From Gammaproteobacteria bacterium (GTDB lineage Bacteria; Pseudomonadota; Gammaproteobacteria; Steroidobacterales; Steroidobacteraceae): 64,000 nucleotides of DNA. Below, in pieces: positions 12,857-44,743 of the stretch; within the stretch, counting starts at the first letter, position 1; every line of letters starts with the position of its first letter. The DNA is taken from assembly GCA_021323735.1 (NCBI GenBank), contig JAJPKM010000038.1, positions 1 to 64,000 of the forward strand. The letters are read 5' to 3'. The position numbers and the translations under genes are program-made. The notes under the pieces are model-generated. The model was not told the origin of the DNA. It ran no database searches and saw nothing but the letters and a program-made list of their open reading frames with translations.

Positions 12857-12871
12857 ACCAATCTTCGATCG

Positions 12872-13804: not shown

Positions 13805-13888
13805 CAGCTATAAGATGGGTGCGCCACGCGCGATGTCAAGTCCACGCGAATGCACCGTTCATGCGTATTTTCTGGCAAACTTTCGTTC

Positions 13889-14047: not shown

Positions 14048-14081
14048 CGGTGACGCGCGTGTTCTCTGATCATATGGAGCG

Positions 14082-20210: not shown

Positions 20211-20459
20211 ATGCGGTTTTCGCTGTACTCCCGTCCTGGCTGCGGCCTTTGCGAGGAGATGTTGAGCGAGCTCGCGGCCCTGCCGGCGGCGCGGGGAATA
20301 CCGATCGAAGTGATCGATGTGGACCTGAACCCGACCACCCGGGCGCGCTATGGCCACAAGATCCCCGTGCTGCTTTTCGAGGGTGAATTGGTGTGCCATG
20401 GCCGGCTGGACCCTCAAGAGGTCGATAAGACCCTCAGCTTTCACCGCCGACCGGTATAA
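20211..20459 (+). CDS. Glutaredoxin-family (DUF836-type) thioredoxin-fold protein
   Basis: An 82-residue thioredoxin-fold protein with a redox motif CGLC in LYSRPGCGLCEEML and a cis-proline in GHKIPVLLFEGE. It resembles the small glutaredoxin-like proteins often found at this position between mucB/rseB and lepA. It starts at the base after the rseB stop. The physiological partner is unknown. Confidence 0.85.
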   Translation: MRFSLYSRPGCGLCEEMLSELAALPAARGIPIEVIDVDLNPTTRARYGHKIPVLLFEGELVCHGRLDPQEVDKTLSFHRRPV

Positions 20460-20516
20460 TACTGGGTTTGCCCGACGTGGCTTACGCGGAACAATCAGAC
20501 AGGCCCTCAAGCGTAG

Positions 20517-22316: not shown

Positions 22317-22352
22317 TCGGCCTACCATTTTGAATCGGTTCGGGGGTACCTC

Positions 22353-23372
22353 GTGAATGATGGCGATCGTATTTTCATAGCCCTGTTGTGTGCGGGCGCT
22401 GTGTGCGTCCTGGTGATCTTGATCGACGGTTGGTTCTTGCGACCGAAACGCGATCCCGGAGCATCGAGTGCGGACGAGCCGCTGCTGCCTAAATTGGCGG
22501 GCTATACGCTGGTGGGCGTTGCGCTGGCCATGCTGTGGCGCCTGTTCAAGTACGAGGCCGTGGATTTCAGCCTCATGCTGGTGGTCGTGGGCGCGGTATC
22601 CGGCATCATCTGGGCGGCGGATCAGCTTTTCTTCGCGCGCCGCCGCCGCATCGCCGCCGCATCCGCGGGCACGCCGGCCGAGCGCGTTCGCGAGCCGCTT
22701 GCGGTCGAATACGCGCGCTCGTTCTTTCCGGTCATCATCTTGGTGCTGGTCATACGCTCCTTTCTCTTCGAGCCCTTCCGTATTCCCTCCGATTCCATGA
22801 TGCCAACCCTGTTCGACGGCGATTTCATCTTCGTCAGCAAGTACTCCTATGGCTTGCGTCTGCCGGTGTCCAATACCCTGGTGGTTGCCACCGGTACGCC
22901 GCAGCGGGGCGATGTGATCGTATTCCGCTTGCCGCCGAACCCGAAGATCAACTACATCAAACGACTGGTTGGACTGCCGGGGGACCGAATTCGAGTCGAC
23001 GAGAACAATCAGCTGTACGTGAACGACAAGCCCATGCCCCAGACCCACGGTCCGGTCTACGCGGGACCCAAGCAGGATCTGTGGAATTACACCGGTGTAC
23101 CGACCGCTTTCGAGCAGCTGGATACCAAGCGCCACCAGATCATGTTCGCCAACGGCGGCGTCAAAACGGGCGAATGGGTCGTGCCCGCGGGGCACTATTT
23201 CTTCATGGGCGACAACCGCAACAACAGCAAGGATAGCCGCTGGCTCGACGAACCGGATGCGCCGGGCTTCGTTCCGGAGCAAAATCTAGTAGGTAAAGCG
23301 GTCCGGATTTGGCTTAATCTCGATACTCGTGACGGACCTCTCTGGAGGAGGGTCGGGAATAAGATTGAATAG
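22353..23372 (+). CDS. lepB: Signal peptidase I
   Basis: Inner-membrane leader peptidase, 339 residues from a GTG at 22353. Transmembrane helices lie near residues 6-24 and 45-90, with another near 125-140. The catalytic Ser is in FRIPSDSMMPTL, the catalytic Lys in NYIKRLVGLPGD, and the box E motif is GDNRNNSKDSRW. It follows lepA as usual and precedes a DUF4845 gene and rnc. Confidence 0.95.
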   Translation: MNDGDRIFIALLCAGAVCVLVILIDGWFLRPKRDPGASSADEPLLPKLAGYTLVGVALAMLWRLFKYEAVDFSLMLVVVGAVSGIIWAADQLFFARRRRIAAASAGTPAERVREPLAVEYARSFFPVIILVLVIRSFLFEPFRIPSDSMMPTLFDGDFIFVSKYSYGLRLPVSNTLVVATGTPQRGDVIVFRLPPNPKINYIKRLVGLPGDRIRVDENNQLYVNDKPMPQTHGPVYAGPKQDLWNYTGVPTAFEQLDTKRHQIMFANGGVKTGEWVVPAGHYFFMGDNRNNSKDSRWLDEPDAPGFVPEQNLVGKAVRIWLNLDTRDGPLWRRVGNKIE

Positions 23373-23392
23373 GGGCTCTTTTAGGGGGATTT

Positions 23393-23755
23393 ATGCATAG
23401 ACACCAGCGCGGCATGACTTTCATCGGCTTGCTCTGCGTTCTCGCTCTGGCGGGAGTGGTGGTTTATGCCGGTATCCGGCTGGCGCCGCTGTACCTCAAC
23501 TATATGAAGGTCGCGAAGGCCATGGATGCGGTGGCGAGCGAGGTCAAGGGCGACAATCCGGACCCGGCGTCCATACGCGCTCTGATCGACCGGCACTTCA
23601 CCATCGATGATCCGACCGGGGTCACGGTGCAGGATGTCGAGATCACCAAGGGCGAGGACGGCGTGGAGATGCATGTGGCCTATGACGATTCCGTGCCCTA
23701 TGTCGCCAATGTGTCTTTGTCCGTACATTTTGAAAAGACAGTGAAGGTGCGGTGA
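23393..23755 (+). CDS. DUF4845 family membrane protein
   Basis: A 120-residue protein of unknown function commonly encoded between lepB and rnc in gammaproteobacteria. A single N-terminal transmembrane helix (about 8-27, MTFIGLLCVLALAGVVVYAG) resembles a type IV pilin leader without the usual processing site. The rest is a small periplasmic alpha/beta domain. An AGGGGG ribosome binding site precedes the ATG. The stop overlaps the rnc GTG. Confidence 0.8.
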   Translation: MHRHQRGMTFIGLLCVLALAGVVVYAGIRLAPLYLNYMKVAKAMDAVASEVKGDNPDPASIRALIDRHFTIDDPTGVTVQDVEITKGEDGVEMHVAYDDSVPYVANVSLSVHFEKTVKVR

Positions 23756-31304: not shown

Positions 31305-31367
31305 TCTGCTTTGCGGACGGCGGCCTCCATGATGAGATATCCGTCGTTTTTGAATAGCTCGGGCTAG
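31301..31367. repeat. Palindromic intergenic repeat, copy 2
   Basis: A partly decayed copy between convergent genes. The left edge CTAG (31301-31304) contains the stop of the PAS gene. The right arm TGAATAGCTCGGGCTAG (31351-31367) contains the stop of the dioxygenase gene on the other strand. The left arm is degenerate, so the hairpin is weaker than at copy 3. Confidence 0.5.
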
Positions 31368-32155
31368 GAGCCCGGCGGGCCGCCCGGTTCCCCGGCGCCG
31401 CCAGCACCCTCGGTTTCGGCCTGCGAGCCGATGCTGTCGCGCACGCGGCCGTAGCTTCCGCCCCAGCGGTCGGTCATCGCCGCACGGATATCCCACAACG
31501 CCGGAAAGAAGCGCTGTTTCGCGCCCGCTTGCAACAGATCCACCGACCGGCCTTTGAGCGACGCCGCGCCCATGCCGATCGATCGCTGAATCAGGTAGAT
31601 GTGGTGCAGACGAAATTTTTGAAACAGCTCATCGAAGCTCAGCATGGCTTCGGCGACGGTATACGCATCGTCGTGCGCGTAGCCGGAGTCATAAATCTTC
31701 TCCACCGTGCAATTCCGCCCGGTGAGATAAACCCGCTCGAACGTGGGCCAAACATTGGGAATGATTTTGAGCAAGACTCGAAAGCCCGGAGACTCCTGCC
31801 CGCTGCCATTGCCGAGCTGCAGGCGAATTTCCTGGTATTCCTTCGGCGACATGGTCTCCAGCAGTTCCAGCTGATCGATCATGAGCCGCAAGGTGCGGTT
31901 GCAGCGTTCGAACAGCGTCAGGACCCTAAATGCCTGCTGTTGCTCCAAGTACTCATCGATATCGAGGAGGGTATAGGCGATCGATTTCATCCATAGCTCT
32001 TCGACCTGATGCACGATTTGGAATAGCAGTTCGTCTTTGTTGCAAAATTGGTCGAAGGGTTTTTGGCATGCCAGCAGGGCCTCCGTATGGAGGTAGAGTT
32101 CGTAGTCCAACTTCTTGCCGCCGGCCATTTCCGCGTAGAAAGTTCGTCGATTCAT
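31364..32155 (-). CDS. Tryptophan 2,3-dioxygenase family haem protein (divergent)
   Basis: 263 residues with the all-helical TDO fold. Conserved elements are the distal segment DELLFQIVHQVEELWMK (Phe and His of the FxxxHQ motif), the Arg in SGQESPGFRVLLK that binds the substrate carboxylate in true TDO, and the proximal haem His region FRLHHIYLIQRSIG. The GTGG(T/S)SG loop that contacts the substrate amino group is replaced by ASLKGRS. This is therefore likely an O2-inserting haem enzyme for an indole or aryl amino acid, but Trp specificity is not assured. The C-terminus is a Gly/Pro-rich tail. It is divergent from an amino acid permease (64-base shared promoter region). Confidence 0.75.
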   Translation of the reverse strand: MNRRTFYAEMAGGKKLDYELYLHTEALLACQKPFDQFCNKDELLFQIVHQVEELWMKSIAYTLLDIDEYLEQQQAFRVLTLFERCNRTLRLMIDQLELLETMSPKEYQEIRLQLGNGSGQESPGFRVLLKIIPNVWPTFERVYLTGRNCTVEKIYDSGYAHDDAYTVAEAMLSFDELFQKFRLHHIYLIQRSIGMGAASLKGRSVDLLQAGAKQRFFPALWDIRAAMTDRWGGSYGRVRDSIGSQAETEGAGGAGEPGGPPGS

Positions 32156-32219
32156 GGCGCTGGATCTCGCGTGCTAGACTGTATGTGTTTCGAATATATC
32201 ACCGCATGCGAGAAAGCGA

Positions 32220-33629
32220 TTGGATGCATCCGCAATCGCCAGCCGCGAGGCCGGCCTGCATAAGGACCTGAGCCGCCCGCAGCTCATCATGATCGGTTTG
32301 GGAGGTGCGATCGGCACCGGCTTATTCATGGGCAGCGGCGTGGCCATCGGCTACGCGGGACCGGCGGTGATCGTCAGTTATGCCATCGCCGCCATTGCCG
32401 CGGCGGCCATCGTGTTCAGTCTGTCGGAAATGGCGGTCGTGCATCCCACCGCGGGTTCATTTGGCACCTACGCCGAGATCTACTTGAATCCCTGGGCGGG
32501 CATCGTGGCGCGCTACTCCTACTGGATGGCGCAGGTGATCGCCGTGGGTGCCGAAGCGGTGGCGGCCGGCGTTTACATGACTTTCTATTTCCCCGGCACG
32601 CCGGTATGGCTGTGGTCGGTGGGATTTGCCTCGGTGTTGCTCTATTTCAATTCGCGCTCGGTGCACAATTTCGGCTCCATCGAGTATTGGTTCGCGCTGA
32701 TCAAGGTGGCGGCCATCGTCATCTTCATTGTCCTGGGAGCGGCAGCGATTCTTGGACTGTGGACGCAGCCGGTGGGCTTTCACAATCTTACGGGTCTTCC
32801 CGGCGGCTTCATGCCGCACGGCTTCGGCGGCGTTTGGATGGCGGTGATCCTGGGTGTGTTGTCATTCAACGGCATCGAGGTCATTGCCGTTACCTCGGGC
32901 GAGGCCAAGGATCCGGTGCGCACCATACCCGCGGCCCTGCGTACGATGGCATTGCGGTTGTTTCTGTTCTACATCCTCGCACTCACCATCGTGGTGGCGT
33001 TCGTGCCCTGGACGGAGACGGGTGCCACGGTGGTGACCCAGAGCCCGTTCGTGCGCATCTTCGCGCATTCCGGAATCCGTCATGCCGCCGGGATCATGAA
33101 CTTCGTGGTCCTGAGCGCCGCGCTTTCGAGCATGAATACCAATGTGTATCTATGCGCGCGCATGCTGTTTTCGCTGTCGCGCGGCGGTTTTGCGCCGCGA
33201 TTCCTGGGCCAGCTGGGTAAGAACGGCACGCCGATCGCGGCCATTCTGCTGTCTGGCGCCTGCATTCTCATCGCCGCAGGATTCTCGAAACTCACGCCGC
33301 TTGCGTACAACTACCTTTTCGGCGTGGCATTGTTCGATGCCATGATCGTGTGGATCATCATTTTGCTGAGCCATTTGAGTTTTCGCCGCCGGCACAAGGC
33401 GGCCGACTTGCCGGTGCGCACACCGGGGTTCCCGGCGGTACAGCTGGTTGGATTGGCGCTGCTGTTCGCGGTATTGGTCACCATGGGCCTGGACAAAGAC
33501 ACTTGGCGGATCTCCTGGATCGTCGGAGTGCCGTGGCTGCTGCTGCTCTCCGTGGTTTATTTCTTCATGCGGGCGCGGCGCGCACGCGGCCTGGCGGCGC
33601 CGGTGAGTGCGATGAAAATCGACGCCTGA
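32220..33629 (+). CDS. Amino acid permease (APC family, AroP/GabP type)
   Basis: A 469-residue inner-membrane transporter with about 12 hydrophobic helices. The first helix carries the APC signature GLGGAIGTGLFMGSG, and the GEAKDPVRTIPAA loop is typical of the amino-acid transporter (AAT) branch. The apparent start is a TTG at 32220. Divergence from the TDO-family gene and linkage to PLP enzymes suggest that it imports the amino acid degraded by this locus. Confidence 0.88.
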   Translation: MDASAIASREAGLHKDLSRPQLIMIGLGGAIGTGLFMGSGVAIGYAGPAVIVSYAIAAIAAAAIVFSLSEMAVVHPTAGSFGTYAEIYLNPWAGIVARYSYWMAQVIAVGAEAVAAGVYMTFYFPGTPVWLWSVGFASVLLYFNSRSVHNFGSIEYWFALIKVAAIVIFIVLGAAAILGLWTQPVGFHNLTGLPGGFMPHGFGGVWMAVILGVLSFNGIEVIAVTSGEAKDPVRTIPAALRTMALRLFLFYILALTIVVAFVPWTETGATVVTQSPFVRIFAHSGIRHAAGIMNFVVLSAALSSMNTNVYLCARMLFSLSRGGFAPRFLGQLGKNGTPIAAILLSGACILIAAGFSKLTPLAYNYLFGVALFDAMIVWIIILLSHLSFRRRHKAADLPVRTPGFPAVQLVGLALLFAVLVTMGLDKDTWRISWIVGVPWLLLLSVVYFFMRARRARGLAAPVSAMKIDA

Positions 33630-33676
33630 ACTATTTATGAACTACGAAAAGCTCATTCATAAATTGTTCAGGCTAG
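33625..33676. repeat. Palindromic intergenic repeat, copy 3 (near-perfect hairpin)
   Basis: CCTGAACTATTTATGAA (33625-33641) and TTCATAAATTGTTCAGG (33656-33672) pair at 16 of 17 positions around a 14-base loop; CTAG follows at 33673-33676. The left arm contains the permease stop (33627-33629) and the right arm contains the stop of the convergent PLP-lyase gene (33668-33670). This is the best-preserved copy and a plausible two-way transcription end point, although there is no T-run. Confidence 0.75.
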
Positions 33677-34651
33677 CGGCGCAGGGTCCGGCATACGTCC
33701 CTGCAGTATGGCGGCGAGCACCTTGCTGTCGATATTGCCGCCGGAGATCACGGCGCATACTTTGGTTTCTGAGTAATGCCCGAACAACGCCGCGGCCGCC
33801 GACACCGCGCCCGCACCCTCCGCCACGATATGGTTGCCTTCCGCCAATAGCTTGATCGCCTCAGCGACCTGCGCCAACGAAACGGTGACGACTTCATCGA
33901 TCATGGACTTGGCGAGCGGCCACATCTCGGGCAGTACCGTTCCGAAGCCTATGCCGCTCACAAAGCCCGGCTCATGCGCGGTCTGGGTCGGGGCCCCGGC
34001 ATCGAAGGCGGACTTCAAGGGATGTGCGCTCGACAGTTCGCAGGCGATGATCTTGACCTGCGGCTTGACGGCGCGTACCGCGCAGGCGATGCCGCAGGCC
34101 AGGCCGCCGCCGCCGAAGGGCACCAGAATGGCCTCGACCTCGGGCCATTGTGCGAGGATTTCCGCGCCGATGGTCGCGTCTCCCGCCAGAGAAGCCGGAT
34201 CCCGCACGGCATCGATATAGACACCCGATTGGGTCTCGAGCGTGCCTTGCTCGATGGCCTGCCACCATGCTTCATTGGTGAGCGTGTCGATGCGTGCGCC
34301 GAGACGTTTGAGCTTTTCCAGCTTCGCCGGCGGCGCATTCGCGGGAACCACCGCCGTGGCGCCTATTCCAAGCCTGCGCGCCATCCACGCCACACCGAGC
34401 GCACTGTTGCCGGCGCTGGTGGTGTAAATGCCGGCCTGCAAATCGGCGCGGTTTCTGGACAGAACGGCGTTCGCGATTGGTCGAATCTTGAATGAACCGA
34501 TCGGCTGTAGATTTTCCAGCTTCAGTCGAACGGTTTTGCCGGGTGTTGCAAGATTGCAATCGACCAGCGGAGCCACCAGGCTCAAACCTTCGATGCGATG
34601 CTTGGCGGCCTCGATCTGCGCCATGCCGACTGCCTTCACTACCTCGAACAT
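33668..34651 (-). CDS. Fold-type-II PLP enzyme, threonine/serine dehydratase-like (paralogue A)
   Basis: 327 residues of the tryptophan-synthase-beta superfamily without an ACT regulatory domain. The PLP lysine is in LENLQPIGSFKIRP, an asparagine loop in TTSAGNSALG, and the phosphate-binding glycine loop in FGGGGLACG. The SFKIRP motif replaces the SFKxRGA of ordinary threonine and serine dehydratases, marking a separate subfamily shared with the gene at 36888. The reaction may be beta-elimination from a hydroxy- or amino-substituted amino acid; the substrate is unknown. The last codons lie in the palindromic repeat. It is divergent from the aminotransferase gene. Confidence 0.78.
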   Translation of the reverse strand: MFEVVKAVGMAQIEAAKHRIEGLSLVAPLVDCNLATPGKTVRLKLENLQPIGSFKIRPIANAVLSRNRADLQAGIYTTSAGNSALGVAWMARRLGIGATAVVPANAPPAKLEKLKRLGARIDTLTNEAWWQAIEQGTLETQSGVYIDAVRDPASLAGDATIGAEILAQWPEVEAILVPFGGGGLACGIACAVRAVKPQVKIIACELSSAHPLKSAFDAGAPTQTAHEPGFVSGIGFGTVLPEMWPLAKSMIDEVVTVSLAQVAEAIKLLAEGNHIVAEGAGAVSAAAALFGHYSETKVCAVISGGNIDSKVLAAILQGRMPDPAPLA

Positions 34652-34697
34652 TTGCGATCCTCGCCGAAGCTCGGCGCTGCGCGCGCCGTGCTCATAA

Positions 34698-34726
34698 TTG
34701 CATGTTTATATGACACTGCATATAAT
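34698..34726 (+). promoter_or_regulatory. Predicted sigma-70 promoter with TGCAT direct repeats
   Basis: TTGCAT (34698-34703), a 17-base spacer and a perfect TATAAT (34721-34726) in an AT-rich island between divergent genes. TGCAT occurs twice, 18 bases apart (34699 and 34717), overlapping both promoter elements, as expected for an operator; the MarR regulator encoded downstream is a candidate ligand. The promoter position argues against the in-frame ATG at 34698 and for the ATG at 34764 as the gene start. Confidence 0.5.
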
Positions 34727-34763
34727 TTCCTCTTCGCAGATTCCTGTGGTGGGGACGTCCGGC

Positions 34764-35915
34764 ATGGAACATAACTTCGAGGCGCTGCGCAGGGAATTTC
34801 CTGTTCTGCAGCGAAAGACCTACCTCAACAGCGGTTCCTACTGCGCGCTCGCCAATGAGGTAAGAGCGGCGTTCGACGCCTACATGGAAGATCGGCTGCT
34901 GGTGGGCGCGAACTGGGATGTCTGGGTGACGAAGAACGAGTCGGTACGCAGCCTGACCGCAAAGCTGCTGCGCGCATCGCCCGACGAGATCGCGGTCACG
35001 GCATCGGTGTCCGCGGGCCTGAACGCATTGGCGAGTGCCTTGCAATTTACCGGTGCGCGCAACAAGGTCGTGGTCAGCGACTTCGAATTCCCCACCAATG
35101 CACAGATCTGGCACGCACAGGAGCCGCGCGGCGCCCGGGTCGTTCATGTGCCGCGCGACAGGGATGGCTACATTCCGGCGCAGATGTTCGAAAAGGCGAT
35201 CGACGAGCACACGCAGCTGGTCGCCATCACGCATGTATGCTTCCGCAACGGCGCGAAACTGGATATACCCGGCATCGTGCGGTTGGCCCGGGCGAAGGGC
35301 GCAAAGGTGCTGTTGGACTGCTATCAATCGGTGGGATCGATGGACCTCGATGTCAAGGCATTGGATGTCGACTTCGCGGTCGGCGGCATGCTCAAGTATC
35401 TGTTGGGCACCGCCGGCATCGGTTTTCTGTATGCGAAGGCTTCTTGCGTCCAATCCCTGGTGCCGAGCAACAGCGGGTGGTTTGCCCAAGCGGACATCAC
35501 CGCCATGGATATCACCGCCAATCGCCCGGCACCCAGCGCGCGTCGTTTCGAGGCAGGCACGCCACCCGTGGTCAACTGCTATGCCGCTGAGGCAGGCCTC
35601 AACATGCTGCTGAAGGTGGGCACGCCGGCCATCGAGAGGCGTAACTACGCGCTCACGAGGCGCTGTATGCAAAGGCTCGAGGAGATCGGCTGGCCGAGCA
35701 TCACGCCGGCCGAGGATTCACGTCGCGGCGCCACCGTGGCGGTGCCGTCGCGTGCCAGTGCACGGCTTTCGGCGGCGCTGATGCAGCATGACATCGTCAC
35801 CTCCCATCGCGATGACAATATCCGCGCGAGCTTTCATTTCTACAACAACGAGGACGACGTCGAATCCTTCATCGCAGCGATGCAGGAGCTGCGCGCGACG
35901 TTCGGGCCCCTCTGA
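34764..35915 (+). CDS. Class V aminotransferase / kynureninase-fold PLP enzyme
   Basis: 383 residues of the fold-type-I class V group (cysteine desulfurase, isopenicillin-N epimerase, kynureninase). The N-terminus EFPVLQRKTYLNSGSYC is followed by TASVSAGLNALASAL (PLP phosphate site), VLLDCYQSVGSMDLD (Asp on the PLP ring) and the probable Schiff-base lysine in VGGMLKYLLGTAGIGFLY. It is not close to the serine-glyoxylate aminotransferase branch. In this setting a kynureninase-like C-C cleavage or a transamination are both possible. Its stop overlaps the ornithine-cyclodeaminase-like gene by one base. Confidence 0.8.
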   Translation: MEHNFEALRREFPVLQRKTYLNSGSYCALANEVRAAFDAYMEDRLLVGANWDVWVTKNESVRSLTAKLLRASPDEIAVTASVSAGLNALASALQFTGARNKVVVSDFEFPTNAQIWHAQEPRGARVVHVPRDRDGYIPAQMFEKAIDEHTQLVAITHVCFRNGAKLDIPGIVRLARAKGAKVLLDCYQSVGSMDLDVKALDVDFAVGGMLKYLLGTAGIGFLYAKASCVQSLVPSNSGWFAQADITAMDITANRPAPSARRFEAGTPPVVNCYAAEAGLNMLLKVGTPAIERRNYALTRRCMQRLEEIGWPSITPAEDSRRGATVAVPSRASARLSAALMQHDIVTSHRDDNIRASFHFYNNEDDVESFIAAMQELRATFGPL

Positions 35916-36898
35916 TGGAAATCCGGGTGTTGCGCGGCGCCGAAGTGCGCCAATTACTGCCGATGGCCGAATGCATCGAGTTGATGCGCCGAACCATGAT
36001 CGCGGTCTCGGAGGGACGAGTCGTGTTGCCGCTGCGTTCGATCGTAAAGATGCCCGACGATCGCGGCATGATGGGCATGATGCCGGGATATCTCTCGGAG
36101 CCGGAATGTTTTGGCGTCAAGCTGGTCAGCCTGAATCCGCGCAACAAGCCGCCGGCCTATTCGTCGCACTTAGGGGTAGTCCTTTTGTTCGAGGCCGAAC
36201 ATGGCCGTCCGGTGGCGCTGCTCGATGCCGCGGAAATTACGGCGATCCGGACGGCGGCGGCCAGTGGACTGGCAACGCGGCTGCTGGCACGGGCGGAGGC
36301 TGGGGATTTGGCCATCCTCGGCGCCGGCGAGCAAGCCGGCAGCCATTTGGAGGCGATGTTGAGCGTGCGAACGCTGCGTCGGATCCGGGTCTGGGCTCGC
36401 GACCGGGACAAGGCGCGAAGCTTTGCCGACACCCAGGGCGAGAAGCACGGAATAGCGGTGGAGACATCGCCCACGGTGCGCGAAGCGATCGCCGGCGCGG
36501 ACATCATTTGCACGACCACGAAGGCACGCGAGCCGATTCTTCAGGGAGAGTGGCTGACACCGGGCGTGCACATGAACGTGGTCGGTTCGAGCATCGCCGC
36601 TGCCGCGGAAATCGACACGGCTGCCGTGCTGAAGAGCCGCTTCTTCGTCGACCGTCGGGAGTCCACTCACCACGAAGGGGGCGAATATCTGCGCGCGCTG
36701 CAAGCCGGTGCCATCACGCCCGAGCACATTCTGGGCGAGATCGGCGAGGTCGCCAACGGCACCCAGAAGGGCCGCATCTCGCCGCTCGATGTGACGATCT
36801 ATAAGTCGCTCGGGATCGCACCGCAGGATCTGGCCTCGGCGTCTCACATATTGGAGAAGGCGCGAGCAGCCGGGGTGGGTCAAATCATTGACTTCTAG
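35915..36898 (+). CDS. Ornithine cyclodeaminase / mu-crystallin family dehydrogenase
   Basis: 327 residues with an NAD(P)-binding Rossmann fold (LAILGAGEQAGSHLEAML) and the family blocks LPLRSIVKMPDD, GVKLVSLNPRN, EITAIRTAAASGLATRLLA and VVGSSIAAAAEID. Members act as ornithine cyclodeaminases, ketimine or iminosuccinate reductases, or alanine dehydrogenases. It lies between two PLP-enzyme genes with overlapping ends, so it probably handles an imine or keto acid made by one of them. Confidence 0.85.
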   Translation: MEIRVLRGAEVRQLLPMAECIELMRRTMIAVSEGRVVLPLRSIVKMPDDRGMMGMMPGYLSEPECFGVKLVSLNPRNKPPAYSSHLGVVLLFEAEHGRPVALLDAAEITAIRTAAASGLATRLLARAEAGDLAILGAGEQAGSHLEAMLSVRTLRRIRVWARDRDKARSFADTQGEKHGIAVETSPTVREAIAGADIICTTTKAREPILQGEWLTPGVHMNVVGSSIAAAAEIDTAAVLKSRFFVDRRESTHHEGGEYLRALQAGAITPEHILGEIGEVANGTQKGRISPLDVTIYKSLGIAPQDLASASHILEKARAAGVGQIIDF

Positions 36899-37859
36899 CC
36901 CGTTAAGCCTGCCCACCGGCGAGCAGGTCGCTGCCGCGCGCGAGCATATTCGTGCCTTCACGCTGCGCACGCCGCTGGTGCGGCTGAACGTCGATCTGCC
37001 GGGTACGACGATCTTTCTCAAGCTCGAGAATCTGCAACCGTGGGGATCGTTCAAAATACGGCCGGCGCTCAATGCGCTGAAGGGCTTGGACACTCAATTG
37101 CTCGGCCGAGGGGTCTTGAGCGCGAGTTCGGGAAACTTCGGGCAGGGGCTCGCCTACGCAGCGCGGCTGTTCGGCGTGCCGGCAACTTTGGCGGTTCCGG
37201 CAGCCGCGGCGCAGACCAAGCTCGATGCATTGACGGAGCTCGGTGCAAAAGTCATCCGGCTGCCGTTTGACGAATGGTGGACCGTATTGACCACGCGCCG
37301 CTGCGCCGGCGAGGAGGGGCTGTTCATTCATCCGGTGGCGGAGGCAGCCGTACTTGCGGGCAATGCAACCATCGGCGCGGAGATTCTCGAGGATCTGCCT
37401 GACTTGGATGCGGTGGTCGCGCCTTTCGGCGGCGGCGGCCTGATCTGCGGCATCGGATCGGTGATGCGTCGTCTCCGGCCCACCGCTCGCATGATATTGG
37501 TGGAGTCCGAAGCGGCCCAGCCGGCCGCCGCGGCACTGGAGAACGGCGGCCCGGTGCCGGTGCCATATCTGCAAAGCTTCGTCGACGGAATGGGCAGCTC
37601 GAGGGTTCTGGAGGAGATGTGGCCGTTGCTGCGCCAGGTAGTCGATCACGCCGCATGTGCGTCATTCGCGCAAATTGCCGCGGCGGTACGCTTGCTGGCG
37701 GTCCGTCATCGTATCATCGCCGAGGCGGCCGGCGCGGCCCCGCTCGCGGCGGCTCTTGCGGGGCTCGCGGGCAAGGGCAATATCGTCTGTATCGTCTCGG
37801 GCGGCAATATCGATACGTCGAAATTCGGCGCCATCCTCGACGGCCAGAGTTTCTTCTGA
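36888..37859 (+). CDS. Fold-type-II PLP enzyme, threonine/serine dehydratase-like (paralogue B)
   Basis: 323 residues, same subfamily as the gene at 33668: LENLQPWGSFKIRP (PLP Lys), SASSGNFGQGLAYAA, FGGGGLICGIGS, GNIVCIVSGGNID. The start is a TTG at 36888, overlapping the preceding gene by 11 bases. Two SFKIRP paralogues in one locus suggest sequential or alternative substrates, or a heteromer. Confidence 0.8.
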   Translation: MTSSPLSLPTGEQVAAAREHIRAFTLRTPLVRLNVDLPGTTIFLKLENLQPWGSFKIRPALNALKGLDTQLLGRGVLSASSGNFGQGLAYAARLFGVPATLAVPAAAAQTKLDALTELGAKVIRLPFDEWWTVLTTRRCAGEEGLFIHPVAEAAVLAGNATIGAEILEDLPDLDAVVAPFGGGGLICGIGSVMRRLRPTARMILVESEAAQPAAAALENGGPVPVPYLQSFVDGMGSSRVLEEMWPLLRQVVDHAACASFAQIAAAVRLLAVRHRIIAEAAGAAPLAAALAGLAGKGNIVCIVSGGNIDTSKFGAILDGQSFF

Positions 37860-37864
37860 CCGTT

Positions 37865-38350
37865 ATGGCGACGAAGGGCACCAAGGTCTCGGCACGCGAA
37901 TCGAAGGCACGGCCCACATCGGCCGACCGGCCTCTATTCGATGATTTTCTGCCGCACCTCATTGCACGGCTTGCCTACCAGCTCAATGGCGATCTGATCG
38001 AAAAATTGCGCCGCGAAGGCATCAACATCACGCGCTGGCGGATTCTTGCGGTGCTGTCCATGGGTGACGGCATCACCATCAAGGAAATCATCGATCGTGC
38101 GATGGTGCAGCAATCGGCGCTCAGCCGTGCGCTGATGCGCATGGAAAAGGAGAACTTCGTCCGCCGCGTGATGCGTGCCGGCGACGCGCGCTGCGTCGAG
38201 GTGTACCTGACGGAAAGGGGCCGTGCCTTGTTCAAGGCATTGAATGTCGTGGTGCGGCGGCGCGAACAGCGCCTGCTGCAGGGGCTCTCCCCGGCGCAGA
38301 TCGATGAGGCCTTCGCACTGATCCGGCAATTGATCCGCAACATGACCTGA
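37865..38350 (+). CDS. MarR-family transcriptional regulator
   Basis: 161 residues with a winged helix: LNGDLIEKLRREGINITRWRILAVLSMGDGITIKEIIDRAMVQQSALSRALMRMEKENFVRR (about 37-100), then the wing and a dimer helix. It is last in the aminotransferase-OCD-lyase run with a 5-base gap and probably regulates the locus in response to an aromatic or amino-acid ligand, as MarR proteins commonly do. The longer frame starting inside the previous gene is not real. Confidence 0.88.
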   Translation: MATKGTKVSARESKARPTSADRPLFDDFLPHLIARLAYQLNGDLIEKLRREGINITRWRILAVLSMGDGITIKEIIDRAMVQQSALSRALMRMEKENFVRRVMRAGDARCVEVYLTERGRALFKALNVVVRRREQRLLQGLSPAQIDEAFALIRQLIRNMT

Positions 38351-38356
38351 ATCGCT

Positions 38357-38385
38357 TTGATCTTTCAAGCGATAACTCATATCGT
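38357..38385 (+). promoter_or_regulatory. Predicted promoter of the CDGSH-cupin gene
   Basis: TTGATC (38357-38362), 17 bases, TATCGT (38380-38385), 27 bases before the ATG at 38412. It suggests a separate transcript for the CDGSH-cupin and cyclase genes. Consensus match is moderate. Confidence 0.35.
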
Positions 38386-38411
38386 ACTCTCTGGTCAAAA
38401 GTGTAATTCTC

Positions 38412-39527
38412 ATGCCTGGACAGGAACCCTTGGATATCGGCGATGCGGTGCCCGCCCCGACGAGCGGCGCCAAGACTCCCGCAGTTGTCGCGTACCGCAA
38501 AGGGTTCTACTGGGAACTCAAAGCCGGCAAGCGCTATCTGTGGTGTAGCTGCGGCCGTTCCAAGTCTCAGCCTTTCTGCGACGGCTCGCATGCGGGAACC
38601 GATTTCCTGCCCATCGCGTTCAAGGCCGAGCGCGACGAGGACGTCATCTTCTGCGGTTGCAAGCAAACCGCCACGGGTCCCTTCTGCGATGGGGCGCACA
38701 GCAACCTCCCCGGCGGCTATCTCACCGATGACCCGAACAGCGCGGCGAATCGGCTCGTTGCAACAGTTCACGCGGGGACAGGGCCGGTCGTTCCGCTCGA
38801 TGGCCAGTGCTATGTCTTCTCCACCGCTCGAGCCCCCCTTCGTACCTGCGGCGCGCTGCGCTACTGCCCGGTGGTGACTCCTGCGCTAGGAGCGCTGTTT
38901 CAATCGCAGTTCTATGCCAACGTCGGGCGTGGCGGGTCGCCGGTCATTGCCGCGGATGGGCGCCATACCGTACTGTTCTTCATGGCGGGCGAAGGGGAGA
39001 TCGAGATCAGCGGGCGACGCTTCGCCGTGGAACCGCTCATGGGGTTCTACATACGGCCGCAAGAAGCCTTTCGCATTCACAACCGCGCGGCGGCTCCGAT
39101 CCAGCTGTTCATCTCACAAGGTCCGGGGGCCGAGGATCTTGTGTGGCTCACCGAGATGCCGGGTAATTTCGACTCGCAGCATCCACGGCGCAGCGCGTCG
39201 ATCGATCCTTCACAGCGCCACAAAATGGCCGAGCGCTACTACCAGATGTTGGTCAATCGCGACCAGGGTTCCACCGTCGTGACGCAGTTCATCGGCAATA
39301 TTCCTCTGTCCAAGGCCGAACCCCATCGGCATCTGTACGAGGAGGCGCTGATCTTTCTCAACGGCCAAGGCGTGGTCTGGACGGAGGGGACCAAAACGCC
39401 TGTCGCCGCCGGGGATGTCTTGTTCCTGCCGCGCAAGCAACTGCATTCCGTCCAATGCACAACCCCCGGTGGATTTGATATCGTGGGGGTGATTTATCCG
39501 GGAGACAATCCCTCCATCAATTACTAG
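38412..39527 (+). CDS. Double CDGSH iron-sulfur / double cupin fusion protein
   Basis: 371 residues. Two CDGSH-type [2Fe-2S] motifs stand at the N-terminus: C45, C47, C56, H60 (CSCGRSKSQPFCDGSH) and C81, C83, C92, H96 (CGCKQTATGPFCDGAH). Two cupin domains follow. The first (about 165-235) lacks the metal histidines. The second (about 280-360) has the full motif H305-x-H307, E311 and H345 with correct spacing, so it should bind iron or another divalent metal. The C-terminal half recalls 3-hydroxyanthranilate- or gentisate-type ring-cleavage dioxygenases; the CDGSH pair could pass electrons to the metal site. No signal peptide. I know of no characterised protein with this architecture. Confidence 0.82.
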   Translation: MPGQEPLDIGDAVPAPTSGAKTPAVVAYRKGFYWELKAGKRYLWCSCGRSKSQPFCDGSHAGTDFLPIAFKAERDEDVIFCGCKQTATGPFCDGAHSNLPGGYLTDDPNSAANRLVATVHAGTGPVVPLDGQCYVFSTARAPLRTCGALRYCPVVTPALGALFQSQFYANVGRGGSPVIAADGRHTVLFFMAGEGEIEISGRRFAVEPLMGFYIRPQEAFRIHNRAAAPIQLFISQGPGAEDLVWLTEMPGNFDSQHPRRSASIDPSQRHKMAERYYQMLVNRDQGSTVVTQFIGNIPLSKAEPHRHLYEEALIFLNGQGVVWTEGTKTPVAAGDVLFLPRKQLHSVQCTTPGGFDIVGVIYPGDNPSINY

Positions 39528-39539
39528 TCATTACTAGTC
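39520..39539 (+). repeat. 10-base tandem duplication
   Basis: ATTACTAGTC occurs twice back to back (39520-39529, 39530-39539). The first copy contains the stop codon of the CDGSH-cupin gene. It may be simple slippage. Confidence 0.6.
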
Positions 39540-39589
39540 GCAACCGAACGACCGGCTCTTCAACATTCAGCGCGTACCCCGAGAGAAAT

Positions 39590-40375
39590 ATGGCTACCCA
39601 CGCACAGGCTCTTTCCACACTCGTCGACGGTATTCTTCGCGGCGGCATCCGCGTCGTCGATCTGACGGTCCCGCTGGAGGCCGCCACGCCGACCATACGC
39701 TTGCCAGAGCAGTTCGCTCCCTCGAAGCCCTTTGTGCTGGAGGAGATATCGCATTACGACTCACGCGGGCCGGCTTGGTACTGGAACAACATCAGCTGCG
39801 GCGAACACACCGGCACGCATTTCGACGCGCCGATACACTGGGTGACCGGTAAGGACTATCCGGACAACGCCACGCATAACATTCCGGTGGAACGCTTCAT
39901 CGGCCCGGCTTGCGTCATCGATGTCTCGCCGCAAGTGCGCGGCAGCGCCGATTTTCTACTCACCCAGAGCATCGTGGAGCAGTGGGAAACCCGGCACGGC
40001 CGCATTCCAAGCCGTGCATGGGTGCTCATTCGTACCGATTGGTCCAAGCGCTCCGGCGATTCCTTCCTCAACTTCTCGAGCGACGGCTCGCACACGCCGG
40101 GATTTCATCCCGAGTGTGTTCCATTTCTGGCGCGCGAGCGCGACATCCTGGGCGTGGGCGTGGAAACCATCGGCACCGATGCCGGGCAGGCCCATACATT
40201 CAATCCCATGTTCCCCTGCCACACCATCATGCACGGCGCCAACCGCTTTGGACTCGCGAGTCTCACCAACTTGGATCAATTGCCGCCTACCGGCGCGGTG
40301 GTGATCGCGCCGCCATTGAAGATCGTGAACGGATCGGGCAGCCCGCTGCGGGTGCTGGCACTGGTGCCGGCCTAG
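39590..40375 (+). CDS. Cyclase-family metal hydrolase (kynurenine-formamidase-like)
   Basis: 261 residues of the cyclase family that includes bacterial kynurenine formamidase and isatin hydrolase. The metal-binding signature HTGTHFDAPIHW is complete, and VVDLTVPLEAATPTI begins the fold. The protein is about 50 residues longer than typical KynB, so the exact substrate may differ. With a TDO-family oxygenase nearby, hydrolysis of an N-formyl or cyclic amide product is the natural guess. A GAGAGAAA ribosome binding site precedes the ATG. The 3' end runs into palindromic repeat copy 4. Confidence 0.8.
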   Translation: MATHAQALSTLVDGILRGGIRVVDLTVPLEAATPTIRLPEQFAPSKPFVLEEISHYDSRGPAWYWNNISCGEHTGTHFDAPIHWVTGKDYPDNATHNIPVERFIGPACVIDVSPQVRGSADFLLTQSIVEQWETRHGRIPSRAWVLIRTDWSKRSGDSFLNFSSDGSHTPGFHPECVPFLARERDILGVGVETIGTDAGQAHTFNPMFPCHTIMHGANRFGLASLTNLDQLPPTGAVVIAPPLKIVNGSGSPLRVLALVPA

Positions 40376-40468: not shown

Positions 40469-41734
40469 TCAAATGGGCTTCAAGCCCAAGCGCAGGAGGT
40501 CGGCGATTTCCGCGGCAATCTGTGCTTTGCGCTGATCATCGCCGCGAACCAGGCCTTTTGCCAGCCAACTGCCGGCGCCGCGCATGAACAGCAAGAGGCA
40601 GTCGCGGTTCACGTCGCGCATGGAGCGCTCATTGTGGGCCTCGTGGCATAGGGCGCGGTAAGCCTGCACCAGGTTTCTGCCGCGCTCGCTGGCAAGCACC
40701 TTCTCCTCGTCGCTCAACGAATCGTAGCCGGTGGATGAACGCAGCGGCTCGATATCGTCGCGTTGATGTGAGATGGCATTGGCGCGCAGCACGGCAACCA
40801 GGGTATCGATGGCACTGCCGCCTTGGGCGGTCGCCTGTTCGCGAATGAAGGAAAATATCCGGTCGGTGCGTGCATAGCATGCCGACACGATGGTCTGCTT
40901 GTCGCCGATGTAATGGTAGAGCGTTCGCTTGGTCGCGCCCACCGCGGCCGCAATGTCATCCAGCGACGTGGTGTCGACACCTCGGCGATTGAACAGCTGC
41001 GAAGCTGCCGCGAGAATCTTTTCGCGTTTGGCGTCGAACTGTGCACCGCGATCGAACAACCCGCCGGGCTGGGCGAGCAGCGGCGAGAAATCAATCGGCG
41101 GGGGGTCGACGGGCCGTGACCGGTCGGCCGCCCAGCCGGCGGTGAGGATGTCCTTGGCCGCCGCGATGATGTCGTTTCGGCTCACGTGCAGTGCCGTAGC
41201 CAGAGGAGAGTTCAGCGGTATCGAATGGATGATGCTGATGATGGTGCGTGCGACGATCGGAAAGTCGCAGGAGCGTATATTGCCCGCCCTGGCGCCGGCC
41301 TCGAGCAAGCTCGCCAGGCGCGCGACGACGGCTTCGAAGATACCGAGAACGGTTTCCCGCGCCGCCTGGTCGAGGAGTCCGATTTCGCTCAAGGCGGCCA
41401 ATTCCGGCTCGTCAGGATCCAGGGTTCTGGAAATAAAATTTCCGACGACTTTAAGGGCGCTGTCGCCGGATTGAGCGGCCTCACCGAGCTGGCGGGCCAT
41501 GATTTCGGAGGATCGCAGGTAAACCTGGAACATCAGGTCTTCCCGATCCTCGACATAGTAGTACAGGGAGGCACGAGAGAAGCCCAGCTTGTCCGCCACC
41601 GCGGTCAAGGAGGTCATCGAAATACCCTTGGAATTCAGCTCTCGTGCGGCCTGGTCGAGCAACTGCACGCGCCGGGACTGTGCGGCCGTCTCGATGCGGC
41701 GCGCCGAGGCCGCGTTTTTGCTTCCCATGCTCAT
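40469..41734 (-). CDS. Tandem TetR-family regulator (two TetR units in one chain)
   Basis: 421 residues, about twice the usual TetR length. TetR-type helix-turn-helix 1 covers about 20-68 (ISMTSLTAVADKLGFSRASLYYYV) and helix-turn-helix 2 about 240-288 (VDTTSLDDIAAAVGATKRTLYHYI); each is followed by its own helical ligand/dimer domain, joined by a Pro-rich linker near 215-228. The ATG is one base after the stop of the redoxin gene, so it is the third gene of the minus-strand redox operon and may control that operon; control of the adjacent amino-acid locus is the alternative. Confidence 0.85.
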   Translation of the reverse strand: MSMGSKNAASARRIETAAQSRRVQLLDQAARELNSKGISMTSLTAVADKLGFSRASLYYYVEDREDLMFQVYLRSSEIMARQLGEAAQSGDSALKVVGNFISRTLDPDEPELAALSEIGLLDQAARETVLGIFEAVVARLASLLEAGARAGNIRSCDFPIVARTIISIIHSIPLNSPLATALHVSRNDIIAAAKDILTAGWAADRSRPVDPPPIDFSPLLAQPGGLFDRGAQFDAKREKILAAASQLFNRRGVDTTSLDDIAAAVGATKRTLYHYIGDKQTIVSACYARTDRIFSFIREQATAQGGSAIDTLVAVLRANAISHQRDDIEPLRSSTGYDSLSDEEKVLASERGRNLVQAYRALCHEAHNERSMRDVNRDCLLLFMRGAGSWLAKGLVRGDDQRKAQIAAEIADLLRLGLKPI

Positions 41735-41735
41735 G

Positions 41736-42365
41736 TCAATATTCTATCGCACAGCCCTGAGGCCGGGTTTCCGAAGCCCTCACGCGATGTCCGGCCAAGA
41801 GGTCGTCCAGTGCGGATTTCATATATTCATGCCCTGTGGCGTCATCGGCGAAAACCTGATCATCCATGGCACCTTCGTAGGCGAGCGTGCCGTCGCGGTC
41901 GACGATGAAAAAGCTCGGCGTCGTCTTGGCGCCATAACTGCGCGCGATTCTGCCATCCATGTCGAACAGGAATTCGGTGACGGTTGCGTGGGTTCGAGCA
42001 ATGCGCTCGCGCGCGTCGGCAGCGGTCAAATAGCCGGCTTTGTCGGATGCCGCCGTGTCGATGGAAAGCCAGACCACTTGGTGCGCAGCCGCGTAGCGCT
42101 GCAATGCTTGTATGGCGCCGCTGTTGTACTTCACCGCAGTGAAGGGGCATACCGGGCTGGTCCACTCCAGTACCACCAGCCTGCCGGCGTACTCGCGCAA
42201 GCGATGCGCTTTGCCGTCGGCGCCCTTGGCGCTGAAGGTTGGCGCCGGTGCCCCGATGTTCACGCGGTTGAAGCCGGCGGCGTGCACATAGCCACCACCG
42301 CCGGCCGCCAGGAGTGAAACGACGGCGACCCGTGCGAATCCCTTCAATCGATCAAAGGAATCCAC
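41736..42365 (-). CDS. Secreted redoxin (AhpC/TSA-like thioredoxin fold)
   Basis: 209 residues from a GTG at 42365, 16 bases after the stop of the upstream gene. A signal peptide (VAVVSLLAAGGGGYVHAAG) precedes a thioredoxin-fold domain with a single redox Cys in TSPVCPFTAVKYNSG and a C-terminal QGCAIEY. The domain layout and the terminal GC motif match the redoxin domain at the start of the neighbouring large protein (AVGCLVDF), so the two are probably duplicates. An in-frame extension upstream of 42365 overlaps the previous gene and has no signal peptide at its start, so I reject it. Confidence 0.82.
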   Translation of the reverse strand: MDSFDRLKGFARVAVVSLLAAGGGGYVHAAGFNRVNIGAPAPTFSAKGADGKAHRLREYAGRLVVLEWTSPVCPFTAVKYNSGAIQALQRYAAAHQVVWLSIDTAASDKAGYLTAADARERIARTHATVTEFLFDMDGRIARSYGAKTTPSFFIVDRDGTLAYEGAMDDQVFADDATGHEYMKSALDDLLAGHRVRASETRPQGCAIEY

Positions 42366-42381
42366 GGGCCGCCACGTCGAG

Positions 42382-44475
42382 TTACTGGCCGCCTCCGGTC
42401 TTTTCCGCCGCCGGTTGCGCCGGTGCAGCGGCCGGAGCCGCGGTCGCCGGTTGCGATGCCTGCTGGCGGCGCTTCTGCATGCCAGCCTCGGCCGCCGCCA
42501 ATTCGTTCGGCTCGATGAAGCCGTCGTGATCGGTGTCGATCTTGGCGAAGTTCGCCGCAAATTGCTTGCCGATGGGGCCGGTCAGCTCGGACATGTCCAG
42601 TTTGCCGTTCATCTTGGTGTCGAGCATGCCGAAGAGCCGGCCTTGGTTCAGATCCTTATCGAAGCTCGCATACTGCTCCATCTTGTCGGAGGTCTCCCCA
42701 ACCCATTCGTAATGGAAGGCGGTGTAGAGCATTTCGTCGAAGGACTGATCGCCCCACGGAACCACGCGATTGTGATCCGGGTTGGCCGGATTACGCACGG
42801 AGTTGTCGTAGGTATACACGGCCAGCAGTTTCGATCCTGCGGGAACCTTGACCGGTTGGACGAAATTGTATTCGCGCTGCCAGTTGAAGTCGTAATGGGG
42901 CAGGGACACGAGCAAGGTCCTCTTGCCGCTCGGCTCAACCATGAAGAACTGCGAGGATGCACCGCGATAGTGGGCGTGCGGGAATACGCCGTACAGCATC
43001 ATATCCTTCGGAACATCGATGTAGGCCTGCTGCTCCGAGCTTTCCGTATTGGCCGGAATGACGATGTTCGCGTTCAGCACCACCGAGTTTCGCATCACGA
43101 ACTTCGGTTTGTCCTTGTAGAAATACAGCGCGATCTGCGAGTGCTCGGTCACTTGCTGGCCGAAGGGTGTGTAGTGCACCTGGAAGCCGACGGCACCGCC
43201 CGGCGGTATGTACGCGCCGGTGTCGGGGGGTTCGACGAAGGACTCGGCGCCCACCGCGTATCCGCCCAAGGACACTCCCCACTTGCTCTCATTCGCCACT
43301 TCGCCGGGTCCCGGTACCTGTGCCAGGTAGCCGGTGAGGATGTGATGCACGGTCTGGCGATTCACGACCTTGATGGTCGAGGCACGCAGCCACTTGCCTT
43401 CCTTCAACGGATTGACGATGTAGGGGCGCTGATAATCCACGATGCCGTTTGCCGGGATGGTGAATGCGGGAACGTCGAGCACCAGGTCCGGCTTGCCCAG
43501 GGGCCATTCCGGTGCCACGAAGGTCTTTGCGGCCAACGGGTCGGCGCCGGCGCCGCGCGGGGCACCCGCTTCGATCCAGTGCACCAAAGTCTTGATCTGG
43601 GCCGCCGAGAGACTGCGGTCACCGAGAAAGTGTCCGATGCTGGGGTCGGCGCGCCACGGCGGCATGCGCTGGGTGCGGATCATTTCGCGAATCATCGGCG
43701 CAAAGGGTGAAATCTCTTCGAACTTGGTGAAGGGCATGGGACCGATGCCGCCGGGCTCGTGGCACGACACGCACTTGTCCTCGAACATCGGCGCGATGTT
43801 CTTCACATAGGTCACTTTGCTGGTGGCGATCTTCGCGCGCTCGGGGAAGTCGACGAGGCAACCGACCGCCTCGACCTTGGCGACGGGCACCGGCTTGCCG
43901 GCCAATTGCGCATCGAGCGCATCCTTCGCCCAGGTGTGATCGGCCTTCGCTTTCTGGCGCTCGTAGGTCACCCTGTCGTCGATCGGGCCGCGATAGACGA
44001 TTTTCCAAGTCTTCGGGTCGATGACGATGACTTCGGCGGAACGGGTCACGCCCAACTGCTCACCCACCAGCTGATTGACGTCCAGCAGGATGGGCAGGTT
44101 GTAGCCGTAGGCCTGCGCCTCGGCGATGATGGCATCACGCTTGTCGATGGTCGTGGAATTCAGCATGAAAATCTCGACGCCCTTGGACGAGTATTCGTCC
44201 TGCAGCGCCTTCACCGAGGCGCTGGAATTGCGGCTGACGGGACAGCTGTTCGCCTGCGTGATCAGTACGACGGCGCTGGCATCGCCAAGCTGGCGCAATT
44301 CATGGGAGTGCAAGTTTTGGTCGGGCAACCGGAAGTCATCGACCGTGATGGGCAACACCACCTCGGCCGGAGCTCGGGCGGTCGGACTTGCGGTGGCGCC
44401 GCTCGAGCTTATGTAGCTCAACGCTGCGACCGCAATCAACGCGGCTGCCGCGACAGATGTACCAGTCTTCTTCAT
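42382..44475 (-). CDS. Secreted redoxin-cytochrome c-copper monooxygenase-like-EF-hand protein
   Basis: 697 residues from the ATG at 44475 (GGGGAAGG ribosome binding site). Order: signal peptide (1-30); redoxin domain (about 40-210, CPVS at 78-81, second Cys at 206); one c-type haem motif CVSCH (235-239) in a small cytochrome domain to about 305; a two-lobed region (about 320-600) resembling the PHM/dopamine-beta-monooxygenase fold with all copper ligands recognisable (HH 377-378, H434 in FQVHY, HxH 500/502, M582 in FDEM); two EF-hand loops (619-630 imperfect, 647-658 canonical DTDHDGFIEPNE); an Ala/Gln/Pro tail. Probably a periplasmic multi-centre oxidoreductase; substrate unknown. First gene of an operon with a second redoxin and the tandem TetR. 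Confidence 0.82.
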   Translation of the reverse strand: MKKTGTSVAAAALIAVAALSYISSSGATASPTARAPAEVVLPITVDDFRLPDQNLHSHELRQLGDASAVVLITQANSCPVSRNSSASVKALQDEYSSKGVEIFMLNSTTIDKRDAIIAEAQAYGYNLPILLDVNQLVGEQLGVTRSAEVIVIDPKTWKIVYRGPIDDRVTYERQKAKADHTWAKDALDAQLAGKPVPVAKVEAVGCLVDFPERAKIATSKVTYVKNIAPMFEDKCVSCHEPGGIGPMPFTKFEEISPFAPMIREMIRTQRMPPWRADPSIGHFLGDRSLSAAQIKTLVHWIEAGAPRGAGADPLAAKTFVAPEWPLGKPDLVLDVPAFTIPANGIVDYQRPYIVNPLKEGKWLRASTIKVVNRQTVHHILTGYLAQVPGPGEVANESKWGVSLGGYAVGAESFVEPPDTGAYIPPGGAVGFQVHYTPFGQQVTEHSQIALYFYKDKPKFVMRNSVVLNANIVIPANTESSEQQAYIDVPKDMMLYGVFPHAHYRGASSQFFMVEPSGKRTLLVSLPHYDFNWQREYNFVQPVKVPAGSKLLAVYTYDNSVRNPANPDHNRVVPWGDQSFDEMLYTAFHYEWVGETSDKMEQYASFDKDLNQGRLFGMLDTKMNGKLDMSELTGPIGKQFAANFAKIDTDHDGFIEPNELAAAEAGMQKRRQQASQPATAAPAAAPAQPAAEKTGGGQ

Positions 44476-44743
44476 AGTCGTTAACCTTCCCCTGTGGTTC
44501 GCCATGGTATTGCCCCGCGCACCTGAGACGCGGAATCTACGTTTCGGTATCATTATGCCACCAAATGTGGAGGCTGTCTTGTGCGTTAATGCGGTATGAC
44601 CTGGATTTTCCTCTTGCGTCGCGGGTTCGACTGCCTGCGCTGGCCCCTTTAGTGCCCGTGGCCGTGAAAATGCCGCTCGCCGCCGGCGGGGCAGGTTATG
44701 TCCACGGCCATGGAAAGGGTGCCCGTTGGGGGTTTGCGACGCG
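44476..44743. other. Divergent intergenic region
   Basis: 268 bases between the redox operon (minus) and the DsbA-like gene (plus). It must hold the redox-operon promoter. I see no clear consensus promoter, palindrome or convincing short gene; a 60-codon frame from 44565 has no protein-like features. Confidence 0.5.

Follow-up and report, generated by a model that had tools for sequence, protein, structure and literature searches.

The closest described systems to the locus reported here are the iad pathway of indole-3-acetate degradation in Variovorax and Bradyrhizobium, the isatin hydrolases A and B, the 2-oxindole-forming haem enzyme MarE and the kynurenine pathway (kynA, kynB, kynU). The locus comprises nine genes at positions 31364 to 40375 of a 64,000-nucleotide stretch (the window) of contig JAJPKM010000038.1, from a gammaproteobacterium of the family Steroidobacteraceae (assembly GCA_021323735.1). 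An earlier note on this DNA had described a kynurenine-like block, and all nine genes were found where it had placed them. Its wider reading holds in part. The locus does appear catabolic for a tryptophan-like compound and distinct from the standard pathway, with a non-standard oxygenase of the tryptophan 2,3-dioxygenase (TDO) family and a kynureninase-like lyase. A route of the kynurenine type is unsupported, because the cyclase-family enzyme has isatin-hydrolase features and partner genes elsewhere point to isatinate and 2-aminobenzoyl-CoA. We consider the chances about even that the locus encodes the upper part of a pathway that degrades tryptophan or oxidised tryptophan via isatin.

In the accessible parts of PMC9613470 and PMC12633357, which name the genes differently, the iad pathway resembles this proposal in its intermediates isatin and isatinic acid, its hydrolase IadI, its ior genes and its MarR regulators. 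Its start is different. There, indole-3-acetate is the substrate of a Rieske oxygenase and the side chain is removed in CoA-dependent steps, whereas the substrate proposed here is an amino acid, attacked by a haem oxygenase and a pyridoxal phosphate (PLP) lyase. The nine-gene region iadC to iadK2 already yields anthranilate and, going by the gene names in the accessible part of PMC12633357, seems to be without ior genes; IorAB may thus be another use of isatinate in that pathway too. MarE (PMC11904535, PMC12312684) serves secondary metabolism, acting on beta-methyltryptophan in maremycin biosynthesis, whereas catabolism is proposed for the window's enzyme. The kynurenine pathway shares with the locus the oxygenase family, the class V fold and the cyclase family.

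The cyclase-family enzyme (39590..40375, + strand) is a predicted isatin hydrolase. In a search against solved structures its closest matches were the isatin hydrolases 5nmp (8.9e-106), 5nna (2e-96) and 4j0n (8.9e-79), followed by an unnamed cyclase (9e-30) and by kynurenine formamidases (7e-5 and weaker). Isatin hydrolases are marked by Mn ligands, catalytic histidines, a WxW pocket and a GLQC/GLAS motif, and KynB has a glutamate at the second metal site (PMC6117287, accessible part). All of these isatin-hydrolase motifs are present in the window's protein. The metal and catalytic pattern HxxxHxDxxxH with its later Asp and His is found as HTGTHFDAPIH at residue 73, TDAG at 196 and PCHTIMHG at 209. 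The aromatic pocket (WxW/FxW) is found as WYW at residue 63, and GLAS lies at 221. The alanine of GLAS occupies the position of the KynB glutamate, and the protein scores 36 bits with the KynB model TIGR03035 (cut-off 223). The formamidase that the earlier note had seen here is therefore replaced by an enzyme whose motifs lend good support to the hydrolysis of isatin to isatinate (2-aminobenzoylformate). In the accessible text of PMC6117287, isatin hydrolases A and B are not linked to a tryptophan-derived gene cluster.

The TDO-family haem oxygenase (31364..32155, − strand; 263 amino acids) gives 92 bits with PF03301 and 116 bits with TIGR03036, where the cut-off for a classical TDO is 390.7. 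We inspected 80 of its 298 relatives found in one genome collection. In these and the window's protein (81 of 81), SLKGR stands in place of GTGGS, so the loss of the GTGG loop that had been read from this gene is real. The residues that we take to be the haem histidine, the indole-binding histidine and the carboxylate-binding Tyr and Arg are kept in all 81. The protein has the SLGGR-type loop and the simplified helical region that characterise MarE; the stretch of the extra TDO helices is a gap when it is aligned to the classical TDO of its own genome. MarE is its best structural match, at 22% identity, and the identity to Xanthomonas TDO is higher (29%). A TDO subclade specific to isatin clusters was not seen in the tree.

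The class V PLP enzyme (34764..35915, + strand; the start codon is probably at 34764) is the proposed retro-aldol lyase. It gives 160 bits with Aminotran_5, 31 bits with KYNU_C and 102 bits with the kynureninase model TIGR01814 (cut-off 246). The classical kynureninase of the same genome, on contig C52, scores 410 bits with that model. K210, D184 and R353, which we presume to be the PLP lysine, the aspartate and the carboxylate-binding arginine, are common to both proteins, as is a tryptophan. Kynureninase is known to cleave dihydrokynurenine in a retro-aldol reaction. An alignment of 63 filtered sequences, in which the window's gene is counted twice (L099 is the same gene), gave two sister clades. 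Clade A holds the window, its relatives, Acidobacteria and Gemmatimonadetes; clade B adjoins a TDO-like gene in sphingomonads, gammaproteobacteria and others. A cysteine desulfurase was considered and rejected: the SufS model gives 158 bits against 475, and the enzyme has no cysteine after residue 301 of 384, where we assume the active-site cysteine of that family to lie. Oxygenase, class V enzyme and cyclase thus all fall below the family cut-offs of the kynurenine pathway in model searches. Part of a classical set lies elsewhere in the genome (TDO on contig C10, kynureninase on C52), which the earlier note had counted against its own idea. It had also reckoned with genes mostly unlinked in other genomes. 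The class V, cyclase and permease genes are linked there; none of the other 59 relatives examined has the TDO-like gene.

The partner genes point to what follows isatin. IorA and IorB accompany isatin hydrolase in 12 of 16 fetched regions (L134, L136, L137, L138, L139, L140, L141, L143, L144, L146, L148 and L150), always within about 3 kb. Seven of these regions (L134, L136, L137, L138, L139, L141 and L150) also hold a monooxygenase built of two flavin domains, which did not turn up in what was fetched of L140, L143, L144, L146 and L148; at 45% identity it occurs without IorAB in L145 and L147. The monooxygenase of the window's genome is VioD-like plus old-yellow-enzyme-like, which we take to be the architecture of 2-aminobenzoyl-CoA monooxygenase/reductase as well. 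It lies on contig C44 together with IorA (67% identical), IorB and an enoyl-CoA hydratase. TDO-like, clade A class V, isatin hydrolase, IorA and IorB genes stand together in L140, L141 and L150 (Acidobacteria, Gemmatimonadetes), and in genomes G070 (L133, L134) and G066 (L135, L136) the same five are on one contig, interrupted by gaps of about 15 to 19 kb. On the plasmid NZ_CP117882 of Novosphingobium sp. KACC 22771, genes for the class V enzyme, a TonB receptor, CDGSH-cupin, IorAB and isatin hydrolase, and the first part of the monooxygenase gene, lie within about 33 kb; the TDO-like gene was looked for in two fetched stretches only.

Co-occurrence was counted in 60 genomes from the window's own genome, genus, family and order. 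The class V gene was present in 12 at E <= 1e-100 (13 at 1e-40, of which G007, with 31% identity, was dropped), isatin hydrolase in 11 and IorA in 14. Class V and isatin hydrolase occur together in nine (Fisher 7e-7), and isatin hydrolase and IorA in ten (1e-7), by tests that ignore shared ancestry. Isatin hydrolase links the two loci, for it lies within the class V locus in G000, G008, G014, G020 and G021 and adjoins IorA in G002, G017, G024 and G027; it is beside neither in G013 and G047. We also chose 50 TDO-like genomes from the 80. Isatin hydrolase is present in 16 of these at E <= 1e-50 and in 25 of 398 genomes of an even draw from the window's phylum (own genome included), a difference that is only a hint since the two sets differ in make-up. 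It is present in 9 of the 12 TDO-like genomes with a class V protein of at least 38% identity and in 7 of the other 38 (p 6e-4).

From these data the following route can be drawn. The amino acid would be imported by the permease, and the SLKGR-type enzyme would oxidise L-tryptophan to 3-hydroxyoxindolylalanine (dioxindolylalanine), directly or via oxindolylalanine. Tryptophan plus O2 is C11H12N2O4, the formula of N-formylkynurenine and 3-hydroxyoxindolylalanine alike; hence the proposed product can form without a reductant. The class V enzyme would cut the bond between the beta carbon and ring C3, retro-aldol style, to give isatin and L-alanine, and the predicted hydrolase would convert isatin to isatinate. 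Isatinate is a 2-oxoacid and hence a fitting substrate for an enzyme resembling indolepyruvate oxidoreductase. Judging by the gene partners, the IorAB-type 2-oxoacid oxidoreductase of C44 would convert it to 2-aminobenzoyl-CoA, which the neighbouring flavin monooxygenase/reductase would attack. As guesses, C3 hydroxylation of oxindolylalanine may fall to the CDGSH-cupin, whose own iron-sulphur domain would supply the electrons, and the three-carbon product may be processed by the ornithine-cyclodeaminase-family (OCD) and fold type II PLP (PALP) enzymes. Several relatives have a TonB receptor in the locus and no TDO-like gene and thus probably import an oxindole amino acid; we infer that in the window's genome this import has been replaced by synthesis from tryptophan. 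Only tentatively do we extend this to the whole SLKGR clade, which may mainly make (di)oxindolylalanine instead of N-formylkynurenine and so open a route from tryptophan through dioxindolylalanine, isatin plus alanine and isatinate to 2-aminobenzoyl-CoA, with the CDGSH-cupin as a self-supplied C3 hydroxylase in oxindole-importing lineages.

The lower half of this route resembles the known iad auxin pathway. The upper half, in which a haem oxygenase and a PLP lyase lead to isatin, was not found in print; no account of these genes in a tryptophan catabolism via isatin turned up in the open literature, a weak negative since most subscription papers were outside the scope. If the route is real, the kynurenine-pathway annotation of many bacterial genes is wrong, tryptophan can be broken down aerobically via isatin, through which auxin breakdown also passes, and primary metabolism is a place where the MarE loop rule (SLxGR versus GTGGS) matters. 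Isatin hydrolase, and IorAB-type oxidoreductases acting on isatinate, would gain candidate partners.

A number of observations weigh against the isatin route or suit a variant of the kynurenine route. In that variant N-formylkynurenine from the TDO-like enzyme would lose formate through the cyclase, the class V enzyme would yield anthranilate and alanine, and the cupin would cleave a ring. The families do stand in a row. Of the 70 loci that extend 2.5 kb or more to either side of the TDO-like gene, 32 have a class V gene within 2.5 kb of it (none was found there in the other 38). Small regulators of a single family, which we read as Lrp/AsnC and which two plasmid records annotate in the same way, start within 218 bases of the TDO-like gene in 29 of 80 loci, as in a kynA-kynU operon. 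None of the 20 genomes checked has a TDO other than the TDO-like one. The lid loop is not the DATG of MarE: it is LGNGSG in the window and in 76 of the 80 relatives (LGHGSG in three, LGQGSG in one), and NGSG is nearer the PASG of TDO. Without ascorbate, MarE itself mainly dioxygenates, to an N-formylkynurenine-like product, and MarE-like loops in TDO gave C3-hydroxylated, non-oxindole products (PMC11904535, PMC12312684). TDO-like proteins tied to clades A and B interleave in the tree, so that one reaction, possibly N-formylkynurenine formation, may serve both; if clade B is kynureninase, the oxygenase may make N-formylkynurenine everywhere. This variant is disfavoured by the isatin-hydrolase motifs of a cyclase without the KynB glutamate, by class V enzymes far under the kynureninase cut-off, by the classical TDO and kynureninase already in the genome, and by the IorAB partner, which requires a 2-oxoacid where the kynurenine route has none. 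We regard it as improbable. Further points against the isatin route concern its partners. Isatin hydrolase stands without IorAB in 4 of the 16 regions (L142, L145, L147, L149), and 34 of the 50 TDO-like genomes are without isatin hydrolase. IorAB and the monooxygenase lie on another contig than the locus, the NCBI model naming the monooxygenase is salicylyl-CoA 5-hydroxylase/oxidoreductase (L037 protein, 1275 bits, cut-off 1078), and the Fisher tests above take no account of common descent.

The isatin route may also be real without the window's oxygenase feeding it. The relatives' locus would then degrade an imported oxindole or other amino acid, with the TDO-like gene a recent passenger. This is less doubtful than the kynurenine variant, yet we think it unlikely. 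The gene is an insertion relative to L102: in the window it lies between the permease and a GGDEF gene, a place taken up by 77 bases in L102. Among the 60 genomes it is present only in the window's own; the relatives' locus therefore works without it. No copy of the palindrome described below was found by a weight-matrix scan at the TDO/permease or IorAB genes, and the isatin route leaves the CDGSH-cupin, OCD and PALP genes unexplained. Among the loci seen, the OCD and PALP genes are confined to the window's genus and a neighbouring one (L102, L104-L108). On the other side stand L140, L141 and L150, where the TDO-like gene accompanies clade A class V, isatin hydrolase and IorAB in Acidobacteria and Gemmatimonadetes, and the window's lack of the TonB receptor that L102, L104 and L107 carry between MarR and cupin (the rest of the window's genome was not searched for it). 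An auxin-degradation (iad) locus is very improbable. Such loci pass through isatin and hold ior genes, a formamidase-annotated hydrolase (IadI) and MarR regulators, according to the accessible parts of their descriptions. However, a scan of ten locus proteins, which did not extend to iad genes in the rest of the genome, found neither IadCDE and IadFG nor any Rieske oxygenase, CoA ligase, thiolase or alcohol dehydrogenase; amino-acid enzymes and an amino acid permease are there instead.

The MarR-family regulator (37865..38350, + strand; PF01047, 44 bits) is conserved in relatives. The gap between PALP1 and the class V gene contains a palindrome, TTATATGACACTGCATATAA (34706..34725), conserved in an alignment of seven genomes including the window. 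With a weight matrix built from the six relatives, the window's copy reaches 30.2, against a maximum of 15.1 in 15 simulated 64-kb sequences. Weaker sites (18 to 25) precede the TonB receptors of L102, L104 and L107, and a match of 23.6 in L004 adjoins unrelated genes. A common operator for the whole locus was rejected, since sites lie only before the class V gene and, more weakly, the TonB receptors. The palindrome is probably the operator of a regulator. In the proposed route MarR probably acts there, before the class V gene; that it binds the palindrome is our guess.

The CDGSH-cupin (38412..39527, + strand) has zf-CDGSH and Cupin_2 domains in one protein, two CDGSH [2Fe-2S] motifs (residues 45 and 81) being fused to a bicupin; the earlier note had recognised a CDGSH fusion. 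The cupin motif HRHLYEE is at residue 305, and H305, H307, E311 and H345, the HxHxxxE...H metal residues, are also present in a relative without CDGSH. Fold matches are non-specific, several bicupin types being found, ring-cleaving ones among them. The cupin part was modelled; residues 1-106, with both CDGSH motifs, have pLDDT <50. The gene was not found in regions L134, L136, L140 and L141, and L150 has a cupin without CDGSH. It therefore seems dispensable where a TDO-like gene feeds the route; the window has both.

The remaining genes are an amino acid permease of the APC family (32220..33629, + strand; PF00324, 313 bits), which is the same gene in relatives, L139, L141 and L150; PALP1, a fold type II PLP lyase of the threonine/hydroxyectoine dehydratase-like type (33668..34651, − strand; PF00291, 205 bits); the OCD protein, an ornithine-cyclodeaminase/mu-crystallin family reductase (35915..36898, + strand; PF02423, 245 bits) whose nearest solved chain is Delta1-pyrroline-2-carboxylate reductase 6t3e; and PALP2, a second such lyase (36888..37859, + strand; PF00291, 224 bits), nearest among solved chains to serine racemase/threonine dehydratase. 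The class V, PALP and OCD genes resemble the beta-hydroxyaspartate cycle, which was rejected on scores of 28/650 bits for BhcA, 141 and 184/550 for BhcB and 157/500 for BhcD. Ectoine/hydroxyectoine use was rejected likewise (EutB 196 and 202 bits, cut-off 413; EutC 208, cut-off 472).

Some variation was seen in related loci. A second cyclase-family enzyme, absent from the window, with 28-33% identity to isatin hydrolase and by eye apparently secreted, adjoins the CDGSH-cupin in L104 (15644-16621), L107 (3200-4198) and L109 (12777-13748). In Novosphingobium region L100, an M20 peptidase gene and others that by eye resemble amidohydrolase genes (13140-14681 and 18739-23430) lie beside class V and CDGSH-cupin genes, a hint that the amino acid may arrive as a conjugate or peptide. 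In L102 a glycoside hydrolase family 39-like protein (1411-2763; 40 bits) lies between isatin hydrolase and a TetR gene, a hint that the substrate may be sugar-bound in that genome. In Caulobacter sp. S45 the place of the clade A enzyme is taken by a different class V enzyme (L139, 9624-10898; TIGR01976, 497 bits), in a cluster that also holds isatin hydrolase, IorAB, CDGSH-cupin and TonB. A distant class V relative (36%) is encoded on a Priestia megaterium plasmid (L101, 7989-9122), with no partner gene of the isatin route among the annotated neighbours within 8 kb.

Downstream of the locus, a regulator that combines two TetR DNA-binding domains in a single chain (40469-41734) is conserved beside the L102 locus with 85% identity. 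It is followed by two redoxin-like proteins in tandem (41736-44553); near the TDO-like gene of L024, a protein without a Pfam match (12059-13291) looks similar by eye. The larger redoxin-like protein (723 amino acids) contains, in addition, a CVSCH motif of the haem type, an EF hand and a long part without assignment.

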